Part shown: piece by piece, positions 2,671 to 62,440 of the stretch
How positions within the stretch are numbered: the stretch's first letter is position 1
Layout of the letters: each line of letters opens with the position of its first letter
Assembly (NCBI RefSeq): GCF_964204865.1
Contig: NC_135255.1
Span: 14,723,135-14,787,134, forward strand
DNA from: Styela clava
Taxonomy: Eukaryota; Chordata; Ascidiacea; Stolidobranchia; Styelidae
Length of the DNA stretch: 64,000 nt
Reading direction: 5' to 3'
The notes under the pieces: generated by a model
What the model was told of the DNA's origin: nothing
The model's database searches: none
What the model saw: the letters and a program-made list of their open reading frames with translations, nothing else
Program-made: the position numbers and the translations under genes

Positions 2671-5600
2671 TTATACAAAAACGTTTTCTTTAGGATTTTT
2701 CTTCCCTTGTAAATCCGCTTGAATATAGGGGAGGACGTCTGAAAAAGAACAATACGATTTGATTAATTTCATAAAATATCTCATATACCTCGACATGGCC
2801 CATTTATAAGTTCTACACAACCGAATACATTTACCGTGCTCACTATAAGAAATACAGACAAATAAGTGGAATTGCATTACAATTTTCACTGAAGTTTTTA
2901 AAGAATTTTGAAAATAATCGAACAAGTTCGGAGGTTATTGCAATATCACCACATATTATAATTAGAGGGCAGTCATTATCAAACCACAATTTAATCTAAT
3001 CGTTAAAATTTGGCAATTGGACGCGTTCAGATTATAAAAGTCCATCAAGATTATCGCTATAGAGGTTTCAACAACTTCATCTAGGCTCTACTCAGATCCA
3101 GACTAAACGTATTATTTCTATAAATGTCCACGTAAACTAAAAGAATATAAAAAAAAATCGAAAGATGTTTAACTTACTTCGCCATCTTAATAACGCTATC
3201 AAGGGAATCCATATAACGCTACATGTGATCAATAACACAATGACAGCTACGACCCACGACGGATATTCGGTTTCTTGAGTAACACCTGGAAAAAACATCA
3301 AGATTCTCAATGAAATAGACGATAACTGAAATTTCTATTCTATATCAAAACCACTATCGAAAATGTCAATTTTCAAAGACCTCAACTCTTGTCTGCTTTG
3401 ATCAGACTCATAATAAAAGAGCGATGCTCAAATATATGGACACGGAGGCTAAAACAAAGTCGTACGGGTATGCAATACCAACAACATAATAACAAAACGA
3501 TCCATATGTACTTTGTGTTCAAAAATTGAAAACGACAACTATTCGGTCGTAATCCTATGGGAGTTTAAGTATGAACCAAGAAAAGACTCACCAATTGTTT
3601 TGTCATAAACGTCATAGCTTGGAGTTTTGAGACCGAGTGATACCAGAGATGAAATAAATAAAACAGCCATACAGATCGGTGATATGGCATACCAAGTAAT
3701 CTTCCAATACCACCCAGGAGGTCCTTTGCCCATCATTAACTCGATATCTTGAGAAAACCTAAAAAAGAATGACAAAATCTTGAAATTTATATTTACTGTC
3801 AATTGTTGAGTACTAGGATATTGTATTTGTCATTTTCAAGTTGGCTTTTGTACCAAATTTCTCAATTACCGATTTCGAAGTTTTCCTTCGATTAATCGAA
3901 AAACAAAACACTGGCAATAATAAATGAAAAATAAAAATGTAATTTTCAAAAAAATCGAATTTATATTTTAATAAATGGGGCATGGAAGCTGATGTTTTTA
4001 AAATGCATTTCAATAATTATTTTAAGGCGTAAGATGAACATTTTAGACAATTAGAGAGATAAAAAGAGAAAAAAATGCATTCGAGAGAAAACACTAGTAT
4101 TAAATGTTGTTAAATCGATCATACCAGCAAAAATAAAATCAACTGTCAAATCGAATTATATTTTTATAAATATTATAAATTACAGTAAAATTAACTAAAA
4201 TATATAAGTTATCTTACTTGTCCATTCCATAAACATAAACAACAGCAATATTCTCAAAGAATGCAATAAGAAGTAAAGGTAACGTTCCTGCGTATGTATC
4301 GAACAATCCTAGGACGTACATTCCGGATTGCAAGCAGAATATGAGACCGATAGAGAAAGAGACAACGCAGAGAATACCTGGTAAATGTAGAATAAATAAT
4401 GATTATTCCTTGAAAATCTTGGACCAATCTATCTCCTGATTTCAAAAATGTTCACACCTAAACAATTTATCGATTTAAGAGATTTGCTGCCAACTAACAC
4501 AAATATATTTTTCTGTAACGTTTTGTCTGACCGAGGTCAGACTTTCTCAGAAAGGTCAGAAATCTGACTTAGGTCAGACGAAACGTTACATTGTTGAACT
4601 ATGTATGTATATAAGGAAGTCTGTCTGGCCATTGTCCGACAAAACGTTACAGAAATATATTTGTGTTAGTGTGCAGCAACACATTTGAATCACTTAGGAT
4701 AGTTATCTTTTCTCTTGCTATAGCATCTTTGTATTATTTATATACCAATCTACCCGCACAAAAAAGGAAGGGTAAGTACTTAGTAAACAGAAAACAAATC
4801 AATAACGTAAAATATGTAGATAATGAAAATTTAATTGTTGTCATCGATTGACTTATTTTGACTTGCGATTATTAAGCCTCGTGGCGTCTGAAATTCCCAG
4901 TTCAGGAGCACGGCTGCAATAACATTAAAAGACTTCAATTCCACAGTCATGTGAGGACATTGGATATAGTTCTAGTCTAGTTCTATCCAACCCAAATTAT
5001 GAACTATTATACCCAATAGCTTTTCAAGTATAAACGACTACTTGTTCAGAGTCTTGCTTGCATTGGAGTAAAATTTGACGTAACAATAACAATTAAACAC
5101 AACATGCACTCACCGACGACGAGTTCTTTTCTTATTTTGACGCCCAAATCCTTTAACGGTGTTATGATGCCCTCTAGTGTTCCAAACATAGATCCGAGAC
5201 CAAGGTTTATCAACATGGAAAAGAACAAGACACTCCAGAACGGCGCACCTGGCATTCTGATCATAGCTTCTGTGAAGGCAATGAACGCAAGCCCTGGTCC
5301 CGAAACAGCCTGAGAATAAGACATTGAGGTTTTTACAAGAAAAAAGTTTAGTCTAACTTTACAAGTATTTTGGATTGAAAAGGCACAATATCATTTTTAT
5401 GACTTTGCTGAGGATAACAGTCGAAAAGTCAAGTCACTGGGACCTCCAGAAGTATGTGTACCAAGATGGCGCACAACCTGAACGTAGTATGTGTACCGAG
5501 TTAGGGTTCAGGTTTTGCGCCATCTTGATGCACATTAAATATATGTATTCTATGTCAGTTTGCAAATTCCATGTATTTTTAATGAATCAAAGCTTTTTAC

Positions 5601-11600: not shown

Positions 11601-14600
11601 AGCGGACTTTCTATGGTTTGTTGTCTAATCTTAACGAATAATGACGTAAATTCCGTAAAATCATTATCGTGTCATCTTACGGCTACGAAAATCGTCTTTG
11701 TCACGAGTTCGTGATTCACATTGTTACAGCTTAATTATGTCGGAAAAATGTTGAATTGCTTTTTTAATTCAATTGTGTCGTTTATAATATTGTCAGTATT
11801 GATTTTAAAGGGGCTGTAATAGTATTCCGTCAAATTTATTTTCGTATGTGACGTTTTCGCCAAAATAGATGCTAATAATGGGCCGATGCGCTGTGGTCAG
11901 CAATTTAATAATCGGAAATTGCAATTCTGGGAACGAAATTTAAATTATTCAAGAGAAGAGAACACTAGACTTGAAAATATATTATTCTAACTGAGTTTGA
12001 TGCTATATTCTCGCTATTATTAAAAGATAATACATTTATAAAGAAATATTGGGTATTATAAATCATAAAAAGTAAAGTTTACTTAATAAATGAGACGAGG
12101 GCTAATAACTTTAAAACATCAGTTAATTTGCTACAATGTAATATATCACAATGTTGTTTTAGACGCATTCCACCACGTATTAGTCGTATGATTCAAGTTG
12201 GCATTTTACGAGTGTTTGAAGTGTACTCTATCTTCCTACTTCCTGTTGCATTGGTTTTAACCCACGCACTCAAAAACCTCGGTGACGAGATCGATTACTA
12301 AATTTCGTGGAATTATTTAACATTATTTCAATGCGTAACAATGTATACATACGATACAAATATCCTAATTTCAAAGGATAAACGGTTGTCATTATATGTG
12401 CTTTGTCGTAATTAATGATTTCTATGTGAATAATCTGATACGGGTAATATAGACCGTCAATTGTATTTTGCGCAGACATTAGAATTCTCACCGACTTTTC
12501 ATTCGGTATAGGGTTAATGAGTATAGAGCAATATGGACAATATATAGGATCGATCTCGGTTCACGTGGTACTTGAATGTAACCTGCCTATAACCATCGTC
12601 TAATACTCGAAACGAGCTAATAATATCAGACATATCCGTCCTTAGATGCACTCCAAATGCACAATTGAATATTACTAGTATCCACCGAATTGGGTATATG
12701 GTCACGGCGATAAAAAATGATAGAAGTGGCACTACTTTCTGGTCACAGGATATTTCAACCCCCTAAGTGTGACACCTTAAAATCAAAGCATCACTAACCT
12801 TTCCAGAAGATTTGATTCCCTTAAAAGTTCCGAAGAAAACGACAGTCCAAGCTAACAACAAGCATAAAACCATTCTCCATTGTAAGATACCAGGTTCTTC
12901 TATAGCAGGCGAAATGTCTAGCGTATCACGATACCAAAAGTATGAGGTTTCACTACTGATGTCACATTCTTGAACTGAAAATAAATAATACTGAAAATCT
13001 TGATTCTGCAGTAACTGTTAGGATACCACAGTTAGCCAATAAACAGGCCTGGTACCACAACTTGACATAGTTATTGGACACGAAGTGGACATAACGATCG
13101 TTTCAATATTATGTTGTTGTTGTTGTTCTTGTTCTTTGACACGTTTTTAAAAAGTCGCTTTTCTCTTCGAATACTGGACCAATTGCTTTGAAATTTTCAG
13201 TGGTTAAAGATTAATTTTTTCGCTAGAAGGCTATTACTTTTATTTATTTCAAAATTTTGCGTGAATTCTATGAAATTTGATATTTCGTCTAAAATTTTGC
13301 TGTATTATTTTTTATCCATGGGAACACGGATTTTAGTCAGTGTCATGACTGGCTGTACGTTTTGATTCTGCAAAATTCTTGCTACTGGAAATTCAGAACT
13401 TTTTTGATGGTACCGGTAGCGTCAAAGGTACCGGTAAGGACTGATTCGCTCTGGTCTAACGTGTCCATATATTTGTGCGTAGCTCTCTTGTTTGCAAATG
13501 ATTATGTTTAGTTGGGACCAGAGATGGAGCTGGAATCGGAGCCTGGATCCGAGCTTACCATGTTAGATGGAACTGTGGCCGGAGCTACCAAAAATTTTAG
13601 TGGCTCAACCTCTTAACCCTCTGATTGGAGCCGGATCCGGGGCCGAACTCTGACATTAAAACTGAAGCTCCGGAGCTGGAACCGGACCCACTGTGATTTC
13701 CCAGCCCCCTAAGTTGTACAAATTATTATAATACGAATACTTCAAGTTTATAAATCTGAAATAGTCGAATAGAAAGTATCTAGTAATATTTGTGCAATCA
13801 AATTACTTTACAAACCTGGTATAGATAAGTTCGTCATAGGATCTTCAACTTCTGGACAATTTGCCCAAGGTAATGATTGAAACGAATTAAGAAAATAAAA
13901 CATTGCCCACGATATGATCACATTATAGTATAACGCAATGAAGAAGCAAACCTGGGGTAAAAAGAAAAATGTCAATAATCGAATAAAACGATCTTTTTAT
14001 TGTATTGGCATGGAAAAATAAAGGCACCGTTTTGTTTTTGCTCAACCACTTTTTATTTTATTAATCTTAGGCCAGTTCAGGTTGGAAATATGAGAAAACA
14101 ACAAACCTAACAAACTTTGAACAGAATCAAAATAAACAGATCGTAAAATTAGTCGTAGTACCGAAATTTATAATAACTTCTCATATATTACTTACCACCA
14201 TACTGGCGATACCGACGCCTCCTAACAGGGGATGTATGTGATTCCAAACTCCAACGCTTCCTCTGCGAAGTCTTTGGCCGATTGCGATTTCAAGATAGAA
14301 CAAGGGAATGCCTTCAAACACCATCATAATGAGGTAAGGTATAAGGAAGGCTCCACCACCATTCTTCTGACATAAATAAGGAAATCGCCAAACATTTCCA
14401 AGACCGACCTAGAAAGATAAAAAATATGCGTTGAAACTATAAATAGTTTACTATGTCATTTCCCAAATTTCAGTTGAGTTACAAGAGCGATACATGGGCA
14501 TGGTTTAACGATGATTAAATTTGAATTTGTACAACAATCGAAAAACAACACCTGCGAGAAGAATTATGCGCAAACAATTAATTTTCATAGCCTTTTGCAA

Positions 14601-20992: not shown

Positions 20993-23206
20993 ATGCGCTT
21001 CGAAGATATTGAAAGGTTGGTTGAAGATGTATTTGAAAAATATGAAAAGTGAGTAACAAGTCTTTAGTTTTTAAGTGATTAGGTAGTTGTACAACTAACC
21101 AAACAATACCACTTTAGCCCTATTGCACCTTGCAAGTAGTGGTTCGGCCTCAAATTTCATTTACATTAATTCAGTTGTGTTTAGTTGTGGTCTCTATATA
21201 GCAGCATCCGCATTTTAAATCAGGTTGAGCCAAAAAACGAACACTACACATCGCGTTATCTATAAAATAGATATCACAATTCACATTCACAAACTTTTAC
21301 CACCAGCCTTTAAAATTAGGAAATTTGAAGCATTGCACTGTGTTTTATAACTATAGGTACGCAAATGTGAAATATGATGGAGAGGAAATAACATTGCTTG
21401 AGCATTCATTGCAAATTGCCAAACTAGCTGAAGAACATGGAGCATCAGAAGAAGTGAGTTACAGCAGATAAATCTGTGAATGGTTGTGTGAGAGTGGAAA
21501 TTCCCTACGTTAAAATATGCGATGTCAATACGCAAGAGTCAGAAGTAAATTTTAGGATATTCTCGAAAAACGACAAAGATACATAACCAAACCTAATCGA
21601 TCAACCACGTATTTTATCAGGAAATGAATATGACAAACTCACAACTTGAGCATGAATGTATTTTGAAAACATGCAAAACATCACAATAATATTTTCAACA
21701 TTTGGAAATATTTTTGTTCAAAGTATAGTTTCCCGCGCCCAAAAATAAATAAACAGTTTTATTTTATCATGTTTTTTCATTGATATGATACACTTACGGC
21801 ATTTCAGGTAATTCTTGGTGCATTCTTTCATGATATTGGGCACGTTCTAGAAGTGGAACAGAGTCATATGCCGGAAGAAAACTGGAAGTACATTGTTGGA
21901 AAACATAACGAGGTAACGCTCACAACGTGGGAATTTGTTAAAATGAAATTTCATTGCAGAATCCCAACGAATAATGATATAAGTTAAAATTGAAATTTGA
22001 TACATCTTCTATGGCAAAAATTTATCAGAAACAAAAAGAACAATATTTCAATAGAATTTCAGCATAAACATTCAGTCATTTTCAGCGATCATACACATCC
22101 GATTATATTTATTTTTAATCATAATATAAGCTTGTCATACAAAGATCGAACAAGTCAACTCGCTCCGGTCGAGTGCTGAGATTTAAAGAAAAATACTCTG
22201 GCTGGCAGGGGTAAAAATATTCCCAATATATATCTACTTGTTGGTATCATTTATTCTCTTTCCCCTGATATCTTTATTGGTGATTATAAAAAGAGAAGCG
22301 TTAGCAGCTTCAATTTACTTCCAGACTGGCCACCAGTTCCTAATCGAAAAAAATTTTCCGAACTCGATTGCATCGCCTGCTAAGTATCACGTCAACGCTA
22401 AAAGATATCTTGTGTGTCGAGTAAAGGAATACCATGACGGTAAGACAATAAAGATTGAACTTATAGTTGACTTTTCAATGCTGCAAGTAGGCCGGCCTAT
22501 GTCGTAGTAATTGACTTAACTGCCGTGTTACTTCAGCACTTATTTCAAATGTATTCGGTTCGAAATGTTGACATCACTAAGAAGAACCTATTCCTGACGA
22601 CTAAACCCACGCTAATAAGAGTAGATTAGCAGTCATGGTGGAGTCGATCGGCACTTACTGTTACTGGTAAGCAAACTACGGCCCGCGGACCAAAGCAGGC
22701 CCGTTGGGCAATTTAATCTGGCCCGCCTAATGCTGCCACAACCAAACTAAAACCAAATTTTGATGTTTTTGCTAAAAATAGCCTAAAAAATTGTTGTAAT
22801 TGCGATTGGATTTAGTCTTGGCATCATTTTTCACTTTTGTTTTTGTAACACTGTAAATATTGTTCATAAAATGTAACTTTTACCGGGTCCAAAAACCTTG
22901 TCCACACCTATTCTACAGCAAAGCTACGACAAGGAAGCCGACATTTGCATGATATATGAAAACCCATACCCTAATTATCAAATTAAATATATAGATCTAT
23001 CAGAATGCAGCAAACGAACATTGATTGGACAAGACGGACCAATGAGCGAAAAGGAAGCGAGGGAATTTGAACAACTGCCTTACTTTCAAACAGCAGTCAA
23101 TGTCAGAAAATGGGATGACAAGGCAAAGGTTATTGGCCAAACAACTCCAACTCTGGAAAAGTATAAATCGATGTGTCTAGATTATCTTGTGCAAATAATG
23201 AAATAA
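20993..23206 (+). CDS. PhnZ/TmpB-like HD-domain oxygenase (5 exons)
   Basis: Predicted soluble HD-domain enzyme of the mixed-valence diiron oxygenase type, the group in which bacterial PhnZ and TmpB cleave C-P bonds. Exons 20993-21048, 21357-21453, 21808-21912, 22325-22439 and 22995-23206 join in phase to 194 aa, the usual length of PhnZ. Visible residues: Y25 and E28 in YDGEEITLLEH, H35, the H59-D60 pair in GAFFHDIGH, H84 in GKHNE, H108 and K112 in HVNAKRYL, QDGPM at 137-141, and D165 in VRKWDDKAK. From memory these match PhnZ Y24, E27, H34, H58-D59, H80, H104, K108 and D161. I chose the last acceptor (22994/22995) because it restores EYHD-DLSECS, as in bacterial homologues; an upstream AG at 22918 is out of phase with the 22439 donor. 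The start ATG lies 12 bases after a TATCAG acceptor-like sequence. The substrate is unknown; the family also includes myo-inositol oxygenase relatives. Confidence 0.88.
22665..22910 (+). repeat. Family C repeat (hAT-like) in the last HD-gene intron
   Basis: Shares GCAAACTACGGCCCGCGG, AACCAAATTTTGATGTTT, ATATTGTTCAT and the end TCCAAAAACCTTG with 39626-39923. The repeat ends about 85 bases before the chosen last exon of the HD-domain gene, just ahead of an unused acceptor at 22918. Confidence 0.75.
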
Positions 23207-23303: not shown

Positions 23304-23719
23304 AAACAAGAGAGCTACGCACAAATATATGGACACGTTAGACCAGAGCGAATCAGTCTTTACCGGTACCTTTGACGCTACCGGTACCCTCAAAAAAGTT
23401 CTGAATTTCCAGTAGCAAGAATTTTGCAGAATCAAAACGTACAGCCAGTCATGACACTGACTAAAATCCGTGTTCCCATGGATAAAAAATAATACAGCAA
23501 AATTTTAGACGAAATATCAAATTTCATAGAATTCACGCAAAATTTTGAAATAAATAAAAGTAATAGCCTTCTAGCGAAGAAATTAATCTTTAACCACTGA
23601 AAATTTCAAAGCAATTGGTTCAGTATTCGAAGAGAAAAGCGATTTTTTAAAAACGTGTCAAAGAACAACAACAACATAATATTGAAACGATCGTTATGGC
23701 CACTAAACGTGTCCAATTA
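23304..23719. mobile_element. MITE family B, full-length-like copy, inverted relative to 13073-13492
   Basis: Starts AAACAAGAGAGCTACGCACA and ends CGTGTCCAATTA. It is close to the exact reverse complement of the element at 13073-13492, with only scattered differences. This implies recent movement or recent conversion. There is no open frame. Confidence 0.85.
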
Positions 23720-25018: not shown

Positions 25019-28000
25019 ATGAAGGGTTTCATAGCTGCAACTACCCAAGGTAAGTTACTGTAACCTTAGATTGTAGCAGTAAAAAAACAATAGCAAGATC
25101 ACAGATAAAAGTCACAATGAGTAAGCACTGGTGCCAAAAGAAATTCATGTCAGTATAGAATTCAGTAAATTAGCTTGTTGCATGCCTCTTTCTAATCCAA
25201 CTCTTTGCCTTGAGTATATCTCAGAGGAATTATTTCATTCATCATATTGTTATTTCAATTTCAGACCTCTGTAAATCTTGGGAAAAAGAAGTTTTGGGGC
25301 AATTCCAAGTTCTCATCAAAGATCCTGCACTTAGACTCAGCGTGGTATGGTGCGCTGGAGCAATCGGACTCGTTGTCATCTGCATGAACTTCCTTGTAAT
25401 TTGTTCAATTATTCGCGCGAAAAATTTGCGACACAATTCCGTCTATATCTTTGTATTCAGCATGGCGGTTGCGGATCTTCTAGCGGCAATTGTGTTTCTT
25501 TCTATATTTCTAAGTAAGTTAAATCTTGAATTTGATATTGTTTCTTTGTCTGTAACGTGTATGAGTGTATAAGAAAGCAAAAAGAAATATTTATGTAACG
25601 TTTTTGAGGTAATATCGTTGTCTTTTATAAAAAATAGTTGATTTAAGTTAGCTACCAAACAACATGGCACACCATTCTGAAGATTCTAATTGATTGGATC
25701 ATCTTCAGTAGGGATGGGTATTTCGAATCGAACAGTGAATAATTCGAATCGTTCCAGACGAGAATTTCGAATCGCCGCCATTTTTTTTATTCGCACAAAA
25801 TCGAGGTCAATCCCTCATTTTTTCTCTTATTTAAACCATATTTTTAAAATGCAATTCTAACATTTATATGACTCTTTTCTTCCGATTGAGTTATCGATGA
25901 AACATGATTATCGATGATTGTGTGAAACACTCAACAAACTTTCCGATTCATGGATAACGTGTTTTCAGTAGCTTATGTGTCCGAAGATTCCATTAAGGTA
26001 AAAATCAGATACAATTACATATCTTCCAGGTATTCGAGATTCGATTCGAAAAAATATTCGATTTTATTCTGACACGATCAAATATTCGGAAATGCCCATC
26101 TCTAATCCTCAGTCAAAATATACATACGATAAGCTTTTTATATTCATCTCTATTTATCATTTATCTATATTTAAAATAAGTTATTGAATTTTCAGGATTT
26201 CATCTGACAAATGATGAACAAGGAACAGATGATATTCCACGAAACAGTACAGTTACAGAATTGTATCAGTTACTTAAGACGAACGACAGGAAACTCCAAG
26301 GATATCTCATCCAACTAATGATGGTGACCACATGTTTCACTGCTTCTGTTGGAAGTTTGGTACTTACTGCTGTTGACAGGTGCCAGATTATCGATCTTAT
26401 TATAGGTTTTAGATGTAAAATTAGGTTGATCATCAAAAATTAATTAGTTACAAATTTTCAGAAGTACTGAATCGAATAAGTTTGCACCAATTTTCATTGT
26501 CTCATCAACTGGCCATGAAGACTTGAAATATTACTGTCTCACTTGTTTAAAACAAAAGTAGAAGTTTTCCACTTTCAAAGTTTTTTTTTATATCATGTTT
26601 TCAGATTTATTGCAGTGGTCAAGCCATTCGAATATCATTCCGTAGCCACAAGAAAACGATGTGTTTTCGCTGTTGTTCTGATGTGGGCAATTTCGATTCT
26701 AGTTTCCTCTCTGCCTGTAGCGGGATGGAGATGCTCATTTGGATGTCAAGGATTTCCAAAACATGGTTGTTCACAGCTGTATCCGGGGATATCTCGAGGA
26801 TACCTGACGTTTTATGTTATTTTTATTGGTGAGATAATATCAGTTTATATTATCGCAAAAAATGTGATGTCACAAATCAAACACGAATACCCAAACCCGC
26901 ACTGTCATCATATAGTCAGCTTAATAATGGAAGAGAATCTTAATAATCATAAGTGATGTGAACCAACGTCGTACTCCAGAGATATTACGGAAAATGTCAC
27001 ATTCGTCAAATTAAAAATCAGTATCTAAGGTATCATGTTAAATAGCGAATACCTTCATAATAATTACTCAATGGGATATCTCCATTTTTCAGTGTCTCTC
27101 CTTGTGTTCGTAACAAGCATGTACATTTATATATTTACTGTTGTATGGAAACATTACAAACATAACTGTGCTGTGGCATCAAAACAGAAAAAATATTTAA
27201 ACTATCCATCATCGACTTGGCCCAGAACAAAAAATACCCCAATAAAGATGCCAGCTAATCATCGAATCACAACAAATCTGAATGCGCCAACGAAGCCCGA
27301 TATTCAGTCAGGAAGACGGACAAAAATACTACCTGGACTCAACAACTGTCCTTGTAAAACTGAAAGCAAATCCAGCCAAGAATCAAGTCTTTACGAACTC
27401 GAAATGGTGAACTGTAACCCGCGGGATAATTCTTTAGAGAAAAGCAGAAGCGGGTCAAGATGCTACGAACTTCGCAAAGAAAGTTTTCGTTTCGTTTTGA
27501 TCGTTGAGGAGGAAAATGACGAAGAATTCAGTGCTTTTAAAAGAGAAAAAGAAAGAGCAACGAGTTTTAGAGGTTTTTTGTTCTATGGAAATACTGAAAA
27601 TTCAACACCCCCTACAGCAGAAAGCGGGTTAGTTATGTTATTGAAACTTGATATAGACAAACGGAGAAACAAAATAGCAAATTCCTCCATCTTCCCTGAC
27701 AAACAGAGAAATCAAAGGGAAAATACACATATTACCATAGATTCGGAAATCGTTTACAATTCGATTCGATTTTTTGATACGAAATGCTGATGTGGGCCGT
27801 TTTCTTATTATGTCGTTGTTCTTGTTTAGATTGGATTCAGATAGCAAACCCACAATATCGCCAATCAAGCCAGCAAAAAGAAGGTCAAGCAGGTTTGACT
27901 TCAAAAGAAACAGACATCAGATGCAGATTATACAGACACTAATATTAATTCTAGGTGAGTGTGAGATAGGTACTGGCAACTTAGTTTTAAATTTTTATCG

Positions 28001-29657
28001 TGGTGATGTCGCTGCAATGATCCACGAGGCAGATTAATCCACAACTCTAATAAGCACAATCCGGTATGATCCGGCAATCCGGTAGAATTCGTCGTTTCCA
28101 TTCTTGTTTTTGAAATAAGCTTAGAAGGATCAGTAGTTTGTGTTGTGTCGACACTCATGCAGTGGACTCTGCCTATAGCTCAATTTATACACACAGAGAA
28201 AAGGCAAAAATATGTTTCTCGATCTTGGCTACTAATAAGCACAATCCAAAAACTCATGATCTGCATACTCAAACTTCTGCTACCCTACTTTTTTTTTTAT
28301 CTACACACAGGTATACTTATCATTTGCTGGGTGCCATCATTGACTTTCATGATTCTGGATCTTCTCATGAACATTAACAAAGACATGAAGAAAGTATTTG
28401 CGTTTCTGGCACTATTAACTTTACTAAATTCAGCAGCTAATCCTGTTGTATACGCAATAAGGTAAATTGAAAAGTGACTACTAAGATTTACGCGGGCGAT
28501 GATGATCATCAACGTGCTCAATTGAGTCTAAACTAAACACTGATACCTAGTTATACAAATTGCAACATGGTTCCAGGCCCCGCGCCGGATTAAGCACCAC
28601 CACGCTGGATTGTAAGAAGGTACCGCATTAAGAGACACAAGTGACTAGACGTATTGCAAAACATGTTTAGGACTGATGATAACAATATTATCAAATTGTA
28701 GCCAATGTAAGCAATGCGCGGCGTCTCAAAAATGCACTGTCCACTTAAGTTACACTCCATATATTAACTCAAACCTTGCAAGCAGAGGTGGGATTCAAAT
28801 TTTTTGTCAGCTGGTTCCATCGTACAAATGTCGAATTTTCAGGAGGTTCTGTTACAAAAGGTCATGTAATGCTAACCGGTTCGCTGATCTCATAAAATTC
28901 CGTGAGACGGTTCTATAGAACCGGTGCGAACCGGCTTAATCGCACTACTGCTTACAAGGTATTATGTATATCTTAACCCAGAACATGAGATGAATCCAAT
29001 CGCATATGCTAACTTAAACCCTTATCCCCGCAATATACGCCGGCATCTACCTACCTCAAAACAGTGTCATATGCGGTCAAGTTTGACAAATGTGTTACAA
29101 AGGGGGACAAGTGTCACTAAAATGTGACTGTTTTGAGACACAGAGCAAAACAACCACGGCTGTGTAAATTCCAGTCGAAGGGACTTGTAGAAAAAATTGT
29201 GCCAGTATTCGACAAATGGCCCTCAAAACAGAACCCATAAATTTCCTAATGACTTCTACGAAAGCGAAACTTTTATCGCCCTGGAAGGAATTGGAATATA
29301 TTCTAGAAAGAACATAACTTTTGTACAGAGCGTCCTAGATTTTTCAAACTTTTCAGTGTCATCATACGATTCAAGTATAAAAAATTAAATAATTTACTCA
29401 AATTTCAAAATAATAACTGAAAAATTTATGGGTTCCATTTGATTTTCGGGTCAACCTGCAAAGAGAAACGGTGCAACTCAGGCGTTACGACTTATTCTGT
29501 ATAGTCTACAAATCAGACGGGGGAAAATATTTAAATCAGGTAGTGTTTTACAACTGGAATGACGATAATTAATCTCAACTATTTTTACAGATTGAAAGAA
29601 CTGCGGGGAATCGCTAGTACACTGCTATGTTGCTTAAAACGTCCTCGACAAAGATGA
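25019..29657 (+). CDS. Cannabinoid-receptor-like class A GPCR (8 exons)
   Basis: Seven-membrane receptor, predicted G-protein-coupled at the plasma membrane. Exons 25019-25049, 25265-25513, 26196-26379, 26605-26828, 27093-27627, 27830-27954, 28311-28461 and 29591-29657 join in phase to 521 aa. Similarity to CB1/CB2: FSMAVADLL (TM2, D2.50), FTASVGSLVLTAVDRF (TM3), VVLMWAISILVSSLPVAGW (TM4), a cysteine-rich second extracellular loop ending CSQLYPGISRGYL, CWVP (TM6), and VFAFLALLTLLNSAANPVVY (TM7), then a C-terminus ending in CCLKRPRQR. Oddities: DRF replaces DRY, glutamine stands where CB1 has K3.28, the third cytoplasmic loop is about 180 residues, and the C-tail is very short. Exon 5 could end earlier; its donor GG|GTTAGT was chosen because it is in phase 2. 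A CB-receptor orthologue (CiCBR) is known from Ciona intestinalis, and this is probably the same gene or its counterpart. Confidence 0.9.
25709..26104. mobile_element. hAT-type non-autonomous element with 8-bp target duplication
   Basis: Ends are TAGGGATGGGTATTTCGAAT and the inverted AAATGCCCATCTCTA. It is flanked by ATCTTCAG (25701-25708) and ATCCTCAG (26105-26112), an 8-bp duplication with one mismatch. The interior is rich in ATTCGAATCG and ATTCGATT motifs. It has inserted in the second intron of the GPCR gene. Confidence 0.85.
28783..28950. mobile_element. hAT-type MITE (168 bp) with 8-bp target duplication
   Basis: The left end is CAGAGGTGGGATTCAAATTT and the right end is the inverted CTTAATCGCACTACTG. 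Flanks are CTTGCAAG (28775-28782) and CTTACAAG (28951-28958), 8 bp with one mismatch. The interior has GGTTCTATAGAACC and AACCGG palindromes. It lies in the last intron of the GPCR gene. Confidence 0.85.
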
Positions 29658-39625: not shown

Positions 39626-39923
39626 ATGAACAAACTACGGCCCGCGGGCCAAATCCGGCCAGTTGAGTAATTCAATCTGGACTGCCTAATGCTGCCATAC
39701 CTAAACTAAAACCAAATTTTGATGTTTCAGCTAAAAATAACTAGGAATTTGGTAAATTTGCGATTCAATTTAGTTTCGGCACGAGGCCTATTGCTTTCCA
39801 CGTCTGCTCTTGTAACACTGTGAATATTGTTCATATAATGTAACTTTTACGTCACACTTACATGGCCCGCCAATGTGGATGGGCAAATTTTATGGCCCTG
39901 GGTTCAAAAACCTTGCCCACCCG
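39626..39923 (+). repeat. Family C repeat (hAT-like)
   Basis: Starts GAACAAACTACGGCCCGCGG and ends GGTTCAAAAACCTTGCCCAC. It shares most of its length with 22665-22910 and is longer by about 50 bases near the right end (ATGGCCCGCCAATGTGGATG). Confidence 0.75.
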
Positions 39924-44701: not shown

Positions 44702-44954
44702 TTGGACACGTCAGTGTACATAACGATCGTTTCAATATTACGTTGTTGTTCTTGTTAGTATCATTCTTCTCTTTCGTCATGATTGCTTTGAAATTTTCAG
44801 TGCTTAAAGTTTGATTTTTTTGCCAGGAGGCTATTACTTTTACTTATTTCAAAAATTTCGGTGGACTTCAAGAGATTCGTTTTTTATGTGTCAGAATACA
44901 AAATAGCGACACTTTGTGACGTGTCCATATATTTGATCACTGCTCTCTTGTTTT
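44702..44954. repeat. MITE family B copy
   Basis: Left end TTGGACACGTCAGTGTACAT then AACGATCGTTTCAATATT. Right end CGTGTCCATATATTTGATCA then CTGCTCTCTTG. The orientation matches 13073-13492, with an internal deletion. Confidence 0.8.
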
Positions 44955-57678: not shown

Positions 57679-60600
57679 TTATCCCATAGTTGAAGAAAGT
57701 AATTTCGACAGGGCGGAATCTGGATTTTTTGACAAGACATCAGGAGTATCGAACTCTTCGACCGTGCCTTGGTCCAACACCATAATACGATCGCAAGTCA
57801 TTACTGTATGCAGTCTATGTGCAATAGTAATTAACGTACAATCTGAAAAATATTCGTTTACAGTATCCTGCACAAGTCTATCTGTTCTTGCGTCGATTGA
57901 CGCGGTGGCTTCATCTAAAATAAGCACCTTATTGCGCCTTAATAATGCTCTCGTAAGGCACATTAATTGTCTTTCACCAACGGAAAAATTACCGCCGTTT
58001 TCGCTTACTGGGGCTTCTAGTTTCATAGGCAGGGATAATATAGTTTCTTTGAGATGTGTCCGTTCTAAAGCAAGCCAGATTTCTTCTTCCGAATATTGAT
58101 CAAACGGGTCGACATTGTATTTGACTGTACCCGTGAATAAAACTGGTTCTTGTGGAATGATTGCAATTTTTGATCGCAATTGGGATAATGATAATTCTGC
58201 TATATTGACACCATCAATTTCAATGCTGCCTCCACACAGTTCAACAAGTCTAAATAACACAACCCCCAAAGATGATTTTCCAGATCCCGTGCGTCCAACA
58301 ACTCCGATTTTTTCGCAAGTATTTATAGTGAATGATATATCCTGTAGAACGAGAGGCAGTCCGTCTCTGTACCGCATTTTCACGTTGTTGAATCGAACAG
58401 AACCAAACTCAGGCCATTTTGGATCTAGATCAGCCTTACCGGCAGATTTTGGCTCCTGTGGAACAGTGGTTATGTAGTGAACGATTCGTTCAGCGCAAAC
58501 AAAGTTAGCTTCTGCTTCTACTGACGTTCGTGCCGTGAATTGAAAGATCAGTGACAGCATAAGTGTCGAAGTAATTGCTAGACCGGCATATGCTGCCTGA
58601 ATCGCACCATTAGTGAGAACTATAAGCAGAGAACTGAGAACGACTAGTGATATAGCCATAAAATCGAGTCTGGTGACTAGCCATCGATTAATAGCAACGT
58701 AGAGAAAATATGGGATCGAATTTGTGTCCAAAAGTTCTTGAAACCGAACGAGAAAATCTTTTGTTCGATTGTAAGCTCGAATTGTGTGGATACCAGTAAT
58801 TGAAGTGGTGATGTGGGATATCCATGGCGAACGTGTTATATTATCCTGACGTTTCATCTCTGTAACAGCTCTTTTAAAGATGAAAAATGCAGCCAAAAAT
58901 ACGGGGACATAGATCACCATAGAAGCAAGGAAGTACGGAAACACATACGCGATAAAAATAAGACAAGAAAGAATTAGAACCCAAAATGACAGAACTAAAT
59001 CCACCAACATCGGAATTATAGTATCCAACATATCTTGATCCTTTTGAAATCGATTCAGTATTCGTCCAGTCGGTGTTGTATCAAAAAATTCCATGGTACT
59101 GTGCATTATTTTGTCAAATAACATATTATGTAGTCCATGAGATGCACGTAAACTCAATGTGGCGAAGACATAAGCTTTTAACATCATGGAAAATACAGAA
59201 GCAGCAATAGTGTATCCAAAAACAGACAGATAAAAGTACAATTTTGGGTTATCAATTACTCTATCTTCAACAAAGGGCAGGGGCGATACCGTAGTTTGAC
59301 TTGGTGTTAGACTAGTTGAAACAGTAAAATCAAACGTAGAGTTAAAACCCGACGAAAAATTTGCTTCCCTTGGTAGCCCCGTAAAATTGTTGACAATAAC
59401 TTCGATTGTTGAAACATTGCGACCAGATCCTTGTTTTAGCCAATATGACATCCACGCCGATGAAAATTGCTGACAACCAATGAACAAAATAAAAGTGAAA
59501 AAGTTAAAAATAGTTACGAACCAACCTCCAGCGGCTTTAATGTACATTCTATAGGCTTCGGCGCTTATAGCTCCCTTCGCTTTTTCCTCTATGGTCATGA
59601 GTCGACCACGTTTCATTTTTTCTGCATGGCTGTAAATTTCATCATCAACGGAAGGCAATAGTTTCTCTTTTATTGTATTTTTCGGTTTCTCTTGCTGATC
59701 GCCTTCTTTTTCTTTTGACCACATTTTATAAAGTTGGTAATATTCGTCTCCGTCATTCAAAAGTTCGTCGTGAGTTCCTTGTTCCCAAATGCGACCATCT
59801 TTCATCAGAACTACTTTATCACAGTATGGTAAATACTCAAGTCGATGTGTCACTAGCACTATTGTTTTTCCCATATTTTTCAAAAGTTTCACAATTGCAT
59901 TTTCAAATAAAGCTTTCCCGACATGGGCATCAACCGCGCTGAGGGGATCGTCTAAAAGATATATGTCTTTATCCATATAAATCGCTCTTGCAATATTAAT
60001 CCTTTGTTTTTGGCCGCCGCTCATATTGACCCCGCGTTCACCGACCTCAGTGAAATCTCCACTTTGTAATATGTCAAAGTCTGGCAACAAACAACACGCC
60101 TTTACTATTCTATCATATTTCTCAGTATCATATTGTAATCCGAAAGTTATGTTATCACGAATCGTATCGTTCATTATCCACGCTTGTTGAGCGCAGTAAG
60201 CAATCGATCCGCTTACAGCTACGGATCCATCATCTAATTGAAGATAACCGAGCATGCTAGATACAAGAGAACTTTTTCCACTTCCAACACGGCCACAAAC
60301 ACCGATTAACGACCCTTTGGCTATTTCCATGGTAATGTTGCTGAGGCACGAAGATGACTGTGTCGATGTGGACAATCCATTTTTAGTCAATCCACTCTTT
60401 TCAACATCAATGCTATTTGAAACGTCGTCAGATTTTTCAACACTATTTCCGCCATCCGCGTTCGAACTCTCCGTAGGCCACGATAGAGTTGCTTGATTCA
60501 GTACAATAGGAACGTCTGGTGATTTTATTTCTTTCGTCAAATAATCGATGAATTCTCTTCGATTTAATACTTTTTGAGCTCTGTCAATCGCCACCCCTGC

Positions 60601-62440
60601 TTCTGCGACATTCTTCATAGCCACAGGTATGACCTTCAAACTGAACGACATGAGATGAAACATTGAAAAGCAAGTAAAAGCCTCGGAACTTGTGATGTTC
60701 TGACCCAGTAATATCGCTAAGACTATTGTTACTATCGTGGCCACGTAAGGTGTTAGTCCGGCCAACCCCATATTAAAACTTTGAAGAAACATTGCACGAT
60801 GAAGATACTTCCATTCGTTATTTCGTATATGATGAACAACTTTAGTGAAAGATTCCTCCCATGCATACATTTTAATAAGTTTAATGGAAGAGAGAATTTC
60901 ATTGATTGATTTTACTCTCTGGTCTGTAAATTTGACAGCTTTTTGTCTTAAAAGATTCAAAACTTTCATCAGACCAATTTGAAGCAGTAAAATTAGAATA
61001 AAAATACCGCAACCACTCAATGCAATTGGTCCAACTAAAAAACAAACGTAAGTGGTGCCAACCACGAACATAATAGGACCAGTTAACAGCAAATGTCCAA
61101 CATTAATAGCGTCAAATACGCGGTCACCATCGCTAGAGCATAAATTCACAATTTCTCCAACGCTCGAGGATTCTGTTGGTGGTACTTGGAGTATTTTTTG
61201 AAAAACTGCCATTGTTAATGCGGCCCGAGTGCGGGCTCCAGATCTCATGCTTACAGCAAATGACATGGAGAAGCAAATCAATCTTATCACTTCAGCTATC
61301 AGCATCCCAACGACTAGTAATATCCCGGCTTTCAAGTCTGAGTTTGAGGTTTCAACATATTGCAGCAAATACCTAACGACGATTCCATTACTTGCAAACT
61401 GTGCAAGAACAAAAAATAATATGCATATTGTAGAAACGGCCAGTCTTGTACGTATAAAACGGAAAATAACCCGTTTCAAAGATGCCAAGTCCCCTCTATT
61501 TTTTATCTCCTCAGACCATAATCGAACGAACCTCTGGCAGTTGGTTTCGGCAGCGTCATACTTTGGAACTTTCCACAGGCTTTCAATTGGAACTGGAGAC
61601 CTAAATACATATAGTATTAAATCACAGCCGATAGTAGATAAGAATTCATACCCGCTTAGTCGGAGTATACTATTAGACTCTCAGATATCAGCGATGTATA
61701 ATTGAATTGCATTTAATGCTTTAAAAAAATCATTTGCAAGTTTCCGAAAATGATCGCCAGTGGATCATACAGGCAGAAAATGCATAAATAATGCATCAAA
61801 AAAAAAAAAAATTGAGCTCGAAAAAATATAAAAAGGAGCTGAAATATAATGTTTTTATGAATTTCCAGCAAAATTTTTTATTTCATGTCACACTCGTCGA
61901 TTATCCTGCCACTTCAGAGTTTTCCTTGGGTACTCACTTGTGCAAACATGTTCCAAATTATTCAGGAAGTTTTTAATTTCACAGGGTTATGTTAGAACCG
62001 TGGCTGTATAACAATAATTTCAAACTGAAATATTTCGATAAGGCGGTTATCGCCGTACTGCAGTCTGTAATATACAAATTCCAGAAAATTTATCTCTTGT
62101 TATTTGTTACGGCACGGTGGTATGCATGCCCAAATGCTTCCGACTAAACTAGACATATCATTCACATATATATTTATATTACATCAGCGACTACCACAAA
62201 AATAAACTATTGGAATAGGGATTGAATATTAAACAACTTAGTAAATGCTCACCTGTATAACTTCCATACTAAGCCGGTTACCCACGAATAAAACACAGTG
62301 GAAAAGAATCCAGCATTATCAATGGGATGTCCGATTGCTTTCTTACTCCGATAAGGCAACAATGCTTTTGCAGAATTTCTGTATTTTCCACCTCTGCGAA
62401 ATTCCACATTAGGTTTGTTGTCTTTTTTATTACCTCCCAT
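57679..62440 (-). CDS. ABCC subfamily ABC transporter, ABCC5/11/12-like (2 exons)
   Basis: Predicted ATP-driven exporter of organic anions in the plasma membrane. Exons 62440-62253 and 61600-57679 join in phase to 1369 aa, the length of short MRPs (no TMD0). The N-terminus has GHPIDNAGFFSTVFYSW, as in ABCC5. Order: TMD1 (about residues 105-400), NBD1 with Walker A GRVGSGKSS (about 497), signature MSGGQKQR (about 588) and Walker B IYLLDDPLSAVDAH (about 608). Then TMD2, whose first extracellular loop has several N-glycosylation sequons (NVS, NFT, NFS, NST). NBD2 has Walker A GRTGSGKSS (about 1165), signature FSVGERQ (about 1267), Walker B VLILDEATASID (about 1288) and H-loop AHRLHT. NBD1 has Asp where NBD2 has the catalytic Glu, the usual ABCC asymmetry. 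An acceptor-like AATATGCAG lies 24 bases before the ATG. Almost the whole protein is one 3.9-kb exon, unlike the many-intron vertebrate ABCC genes. Confidence 0.95.

Follow-up and report, generated by a model that had tools for sequence, protein, structure and literature searches.

A five-exon gene lies at positions 20993-23206 on the forward strand of the window, the 64-kb stretch of Styela clava DNA that was analysed. Its spliced product of 194 aa has no internal stop and ends in a stop codon, and all four introns are of the GT...AG type. Exon 1 (20993-21048; donor GTGAGTAA), whose position was recovered by tblastn, is coding from the ATG and holds residues 1-18 plus two bases of codon 19. 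Intron 1 (21049-21356; 308 nt) is followed by exon 2 (21357-21453; acceptor ...CTATAG, donor GTGAGTTA), with the gate residues Y25 and E28 and the iron ligand H35. Beyond intron 2 (21454-21807; 354 nt), exon 3 (21808-21912) carries H59, D60, H63 and H84, and beyond intron 3 (21913-22324; 412 nt), exon 4 (22325-22439) carries H108, K112 and Y122. Intron 4 (22440-22994; 555 nt) ends in ...TTAAATATATAG, directly followed by AT of exon 5 (22995-23206, with the stop codon), which carries L126, S130, Q137, the odd residue D138, R162, D165 and K169.

The product was compared across the exon joins with 82 relatives (the best 80 of at least 210 loci, plus PhnZ and TmpB). The exon 1/2 join was free of indels in 79 of the 82 and the exon 2/3 and 3/4 joins in all 82; the exon 4/5 join was also free of indels in 82 of 82, a fit that is partly built in because this acceptor was selected with the family pattern in view and restores the family Y-x3-L-S spacing. 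The five-exon model put forward in the earlier note was borne out by the GT-AG introns, the single 194-aa frame and the joins. With tblastn, the protein matched these exons and otherwise gave only two weak matches (E 2.9 and 4.1), so that no second copy was seen within the 64-kb window.

Exons of a sodium:neurotransmitter symporter were placed by eye at about 2.6-7.8 kb on the reverse strand (8 of 100 left-half frames matched), and the frame at 5049-5390 (reverse strand) had neutral amino acid transporter B(0)AT1 as its nearest PDB match. A rhodopsin-like receptor has its exons, also placed by eye, at about 25174-28462 on the forward strand (3 of 100 frames matched 7tm_1). Between them, the frame at 27029-27787 (253 codons) had no Pfam match with an E of 0.01 or lower. 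A frame resembling ABCC5 (MRP5) runs uninterrupted for 1333 aa at 57682-61680 on the reverse strand, with two stretches each of transmembrane and ATPase regions; it would form a single, very long exon and may be a retrocopy or a gene with few introns. The symporter, receptor and ABCC5-like frames mark the window as animal DNA. From 33 to 64 kb, 1 of 95 scanned frames matched the calponin homology domain (4.8e-6).

Bacterial contamination was ruled out by the introns together with the animal-type neighbours, in agreement with the earlier description of a resident gene. The GC3 of the PhnZ-type coding sequence (0.344) was close to that of the ABCC frame (0.342) and of the frame at 27029-27787 (0.344). 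It was also close to that of 2 of the 7 bacterial relatives measured (L001, 0.323; L040, 0.345), so that GC3 alone is no proof of a host gene.

In an inverted repeat pair of 373 nt (13121-13493 and 23304-23676; 98% complementary), the second arm begins 98 nt downstream of the stop codon of the PhnZ-type gene, and the stretch at 44782-44885 is partly similar to it; the 373-nt repeat looks like a recent dispersed element. A direct repeat of 109 nt (22672-22780 and 39631-39739; 87% alike) has its first copy inside intron 4. No Rfam family matched the window at gathering thresholds, and no tRNA was predicted in it by ARAGORN under the bacterial code.

Family assignment and conserved residues

The best model for the product was NCBIfam TIGR03276 Phn-HD, the phosphonate degradation HD-domain oxygenase (residues 8-185, 178.5 bits, E 8.7e-53). 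It was followed by the TmpB model NF049941 (138.2 bits, E 2.7e-40) and the hydroxymethylphosphonate dioxygenase model NF052439 (131.8 bits, E 2.1e-38). The matches to the Phn-HD, TmpB and PhnZ1-GIM8 models were full-length. A PDB search gave PhnZ (103.4 bits, E 1.3e-28) and TmpB (96.7 bits, E 1.5e-26), and no other molecule matched at E up to 1. A chance match or frame artefact was ruled out by the Phn-HD and PhnZ matches, the intact 194-codon frame and the joins fitting the family.

Generic HD domains and MIOX gave far weaker matches than the PhnZ-type models (Pfam HD, 31.5 bits, E 2.3e-7; MIOX, PF05153, 13.9 bits, E 0.04, under the gathering score of 25). The HD domain shared in these matches would also suit a protein related to MIOX or a common HD phosphohydrolase, yet such an identity is strongly disfavoured and extremely improbable against a Phn-HD match across nearly the whole length, a PDB search that at E up to 1 returned PhnZ and TmpB only, and a YxxE gate that is described in PMC8177086 as absent from MIOX.

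For each of the three PhnZ-type NCBIfam models, the product scored below the curated cut-off (214.6 bits for TIGR03276, a hypothetical equivalog model, and 300 bits each for NF049941 and NF052439). The Phn-HD cut-off does not exclude the product from the wider family, because the 171-aa piece of PhnZ itself scored below it (189.1 bits), as did the bacterial relative L001 (213.8 bits). On these scores, no equivalog name is assignable to the 194-aa protein. The identification in the earlier note of a PhnZ/TmpB-type HD-domain oxygenase is supported, as judged by sequence, by the Phn-HD and PDB matches and by the catalytic residues.

Twenty alignment columns were invariant in the 82 relatives (the best 80 of at least 210 loci, plus PhnZ and TmpB), and the product keeps 19 of them: Y25, E28, H35, A43, H59, D60, G62, H63, H84, H108, V109, K112, Y122, L126, S130, Q137, R162, D165 and K169. 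They include the YxxE gate loop (Y25 and E28) and the six iron-ligand positions (H35, H59, D60, H84, H108 and D165), the latter invariant in 82 of 82 relatives. Every catalytic residue named in the earlier note (the gate pair, the six ligands and K112) is present. Counterparts of PhnZ Tyr24, Glu27, His34, His58, Asp59, His62, His80, His104, Arg158 and Asp161 are likewise all present. Among the active-site positions, H63, R162, K112 and Q137 correspond to PhnZ His62, Arg158, Lys108 and Gln133, of which Lys108 and Gln133 are taken here to be active-site residues. The roles of the PhnZ iron ligands and of Tyr24, Glu27, His62 and Arg158 are described in PMC8177086 and PMC7916636; the latter ties His62 to the substrate hydroxyl and places Arg158 within the active-site proton chain, and the former gives the YxxE gate a role in PhnZ-type enzymes.

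The sole departure among the 20 invariant columns, one that the earlier note passes over, is Asp138, directly after Gln137, where 82 of 82 relatives (from the best 80 of at least 210 loci, plus PhnZ and TmpB) have Gly. A Gly after the conserved Gln (QG) is conserved, and is not known as a defining feature of the family. When columns conserved at 95% or more in the same relatives were considered, 30 of 32 were kept, the other departure being Ala21 for Gly. Because Asp138 replaces a universal Gly next to Gln137, the active-site pocket may differ, and this residue is the strongest hint in the sequence that substrate or kinetics may differ as well.

Bacterial relatives, their gene neighbourhoods and the origin of the gene

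A scan of genome contigs confirmed at least 210 relatives, and the analysis went on with the best 80 of them. Closest by identity among these 80 were Bacteroidota (L001, 46%; L016, 45%; L005 and L006, 44%). Two scans of viral contigs yielded 5 and 47 pattern matches, not one of which was confirmed as a relative.

Predicted genes within four on each side of the 80 loci were grouped by single-linkage clustering, and ten cluster representatives were scanned. Seven of the ten matched phosphonate-type models (PhnX-like hydrolase, HpnW FAD oxidoreductase, phosphonoacetaldehyde dehydrogenase, TmpA, PhnA, aminoethylphosphonate transporter permease PhnU2 and a methylphosphonate hydroxylase-like protein), and three matched none. 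At least one of the seven clusters occurred near 62 of the 80 bacterial relatives (the best 80 of at least 210) and none near the other 18, a count that stands without a random-locus control and in which single linkage may have admitted distant FAD or aldehyde dehydrogenase relatives.

At the 33 Bacteroidota loci among these 80, individual scans covered 126 of the 137 neighbours listed, and 20 matched PhnX-like, 14 HpnW and 19 the uncharacterised family DUF5690. No alpha-ketoglutarate hydroxylase family was among the Pfam families matched by at least two scanned neighbours at these 33 loci, so that the Bacteroidota group may use a ready-hydroxylated substrate or a hydroxylase encoded elsewhere. 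The FAD enzyme PbfD of aminoethylphosphonate-degradation clusters oxidises N-methyl-aminoethylphosphonate, as described in PMC10590968, and we infer that HpnW corresponds to it.

A gate loop one residue shorter (Y-DE in place of YxGE) was seen in L010, L019 (Poribacteria), L056, L068 and L070, and L010 adjoins a methylphosphonate hydroxylase-like gene. The gate-loop gap extended to 10 of 82 rows (the best 80 of at least 210 loci, plus PhnZ and TmpB), including L067 and L077. The shorter loop was not relied on as a mark of methylphosphonate enzymes, L067 and L077 not being known as that kind; the Y-DE form may, at most, mark the L010/L019/L056/L068/L070 branch.

A tree of 83 rows and 195 columns was built from the window protein, PhnZ, TmpB and the best 80 of at least 210 loci, with no other eukaryote. 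The window protein had the longest end branch of the 83 (2.2 changes per column) and fell outside a 46-row group with PhnZ, most Bacteroidota and the Pseudomonas-type rows (support 95/90). Constrained placements with the TmpB clade (p-AU = 0.296), with L001/L002/L005 (p-AU = 0.308) and with L010/L019/L070 (p-AU = 0.297), groups that were named after the tree was seen, were not rejected. No close donor appears in the tree, and with these three alternatives and so long a branch, none is claimed.

The four introns, and an identity of at most 46% to the best 80 of at least 210 loci, argue against recent transfer. A copy newly acquired from bacteria that is decaying or unexpressed, or an assembly artefact, would be in keeping with a gene known here from its DNA sequence, flanked by the 373-nt repeat pair and with a GC3 also near that of 2 of 7 bacterial relatives measured. 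Such readings are nonetheless improbable for a 194-codon frame intact over five exons that retains 19 of 20 invariant residues, reaches no more than that identity to its relatives, and sits with its introns among animal-type neighbours.

Proposed function and comparison with known systems

The gene probably encodes a small diiron HD oxygenase of the PhnZ/TmpB kind that would cleave the C-P bond of a 1-hydroxylated aminophosphonate, with its substrate drawn from the animal's phosphonolipids or food. The six ligand residues would coordinate a mixed-valent Fe(II)/Fe(III) pair of irons, and Y25 would cap the O2 site when substrate is absent. Once a 1-hydroxylated aminophosphonate is bound by the oxygens of its phosphonate and hydroxyl groups, E28 would move inward to contact the substrate amine and Y25 would leave; O2 would next attach to the second iron, and cleavage of the C-P bond would yield phosphate and an amino acid. 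The amino acid would be glycine if the substrate were (R)-2-amino-1-hydroxyethylphosphonate. The likely source would be 2-aminoethylphosphonate from the animal's own phosphonolipids or from food, which another enzyme would hydroxylate beforehand or which would enter the animal already hydroxylated. The use of iron and O2, the product and the mechanism are predicted by analogy with the family; which substrate is used, where it comes from and which hydroxylase acts beforehand are proposed more tentatively.

A phosphonate substrate, which the earlier note had suggested, is reasonable in view of the catalytic residues and the phosphonate-type genes near 62 of 80 bacterial relatives (the best 80 of at least 210), and its identity stays inferred. 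Counting against a phosphonate oxygenase are Asp138, the missed cut-offs, the longest branch, the 18 of 80 relatives (again from at least 210) that have no neighbour cluster of this kind, and the lack of a partner gene: among 194 of the 236 frames of at least 58 aa plus the ABCC frame, nothing else in the window was recognised as a hydroxylase or another phosphonate gene.

Several of these observations would also be met by a PhnZ-type diiron oxygenase with the same O2 chemistry whose substrate in animals is another one, not a phosphonate or unusual in some other way. The Asp beside Gln137, at a position held by Gly in 82 of 82 relatives (the best 80 of at least 210, plus PhnZ and TmpB), the longest branch of the 83 rows and a window with no recognised phosphonate partner gene (frames of at least 58 aa) are in line with such an enzyme. 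It is nevertheless the less likely of the two, since just one of 20 invariant residues has changed and the product retains H63 and R162, the counterparts of the PhnZ residues whose roles are described in PMC7916636, and phosphonate-type neighbours occur at 62 of the best 80 of at least 210 bacterial relatives.

With cleavage of a hydroxylated aminophosphonate as the preferred activity, a wider proposal is possible, at somewhat under even chances: a resident animal oxidative route in which hydroxylated aminoethylphosphonate from phosphonolipids would be cleaved at its C-P bond to phosphate and glycine, by an enzyme separate from its bacterial relatives for long enough to have acquired four introns and an altered residue next to the glutamine that binds the phosphonate. 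Because the intact gene closely resembles bacterial enzymes that break C-P bonds with iron and oxygen, the animal may have the capacity for phosphonate recycling, and a PhnZ-type gene this well conserved makes oxidative C-P cleavage in animals directly testable.

What is new is a PhnZ-type gene in an animal; the enzyme is of a known kind, and the system as such is not novel. Some invertebrate proteins carry automatic NCBI names of the form '2-amino-1-hydroxyethylphosphonate dioxygenase (glycine-forming)-like', so that the family is probably already present, unstudied, in animal databases. Foreign genes in bdelloid rotifers have reportedly been the subject of a published study. No paper on an animal PhnZ enzyme was found among the search results listed for a mostly open-access literature. 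Precedents for the handling of phosphonates by animals are the genes for aminoethylphosphonate synthesis reported in corals (PMC3640398) and, in snail haemocyte proteomics, annotations of phosphonoacetaldehyde hydrolase-like and aminoethylphosphonate transaminase-like proteins under phosphonate catabolism (PMC6281880).

Among characterised enzymes, PhnZ of the marine bacterium HF130_AEPn_1 (PDB 4MLM, 4MLN, 4N6W, 4N71) is 38% identical to the product over the aligned piece. The six iron ligands, the YxxE gate and the counterparts of His62, Lys108, Gln133 and Arg158 are all in the window protein; PhnZ differs in being bacterial and in having Gly at the position of Asp138. Its tandem partner is the hydroxylase PhnY (PMC8177086). 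TmpB of Leisingera caerulea (PDB 6NPA) is 41% identical over the aligned piece and has the same ligands and gate, but the product reaches 138.2 bits with the TmpB model against a cut-off of 300; TmpB acts on a trimethylated substrate, with TmpA (PMC10574752). The Bacteroidota members of Phn-HD are the closest by identity among the best 80 of at least 210 loci, and the product scores below the cut-off of that model. MIOX, the animal myo-inositol oxygenase, has the same HD-type mixed-valent diiron chemistry (PMC8177086) but differs in its sub-cut-off match (13.9 bits) and in having no YxxE gate. A PhnZ-type enzyme in a eukaryote is not new as such, because PhoF of the fungus Fonsecaea multimorphosa, a PhnY-PhnZ fusion, has been published (PMC10574752). 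By description, PhoF and the Styela clava product are both eukaryotic PhnZ-type proteins; PhoF is fused, whereas the product corresponds to the PhnZ part alone.
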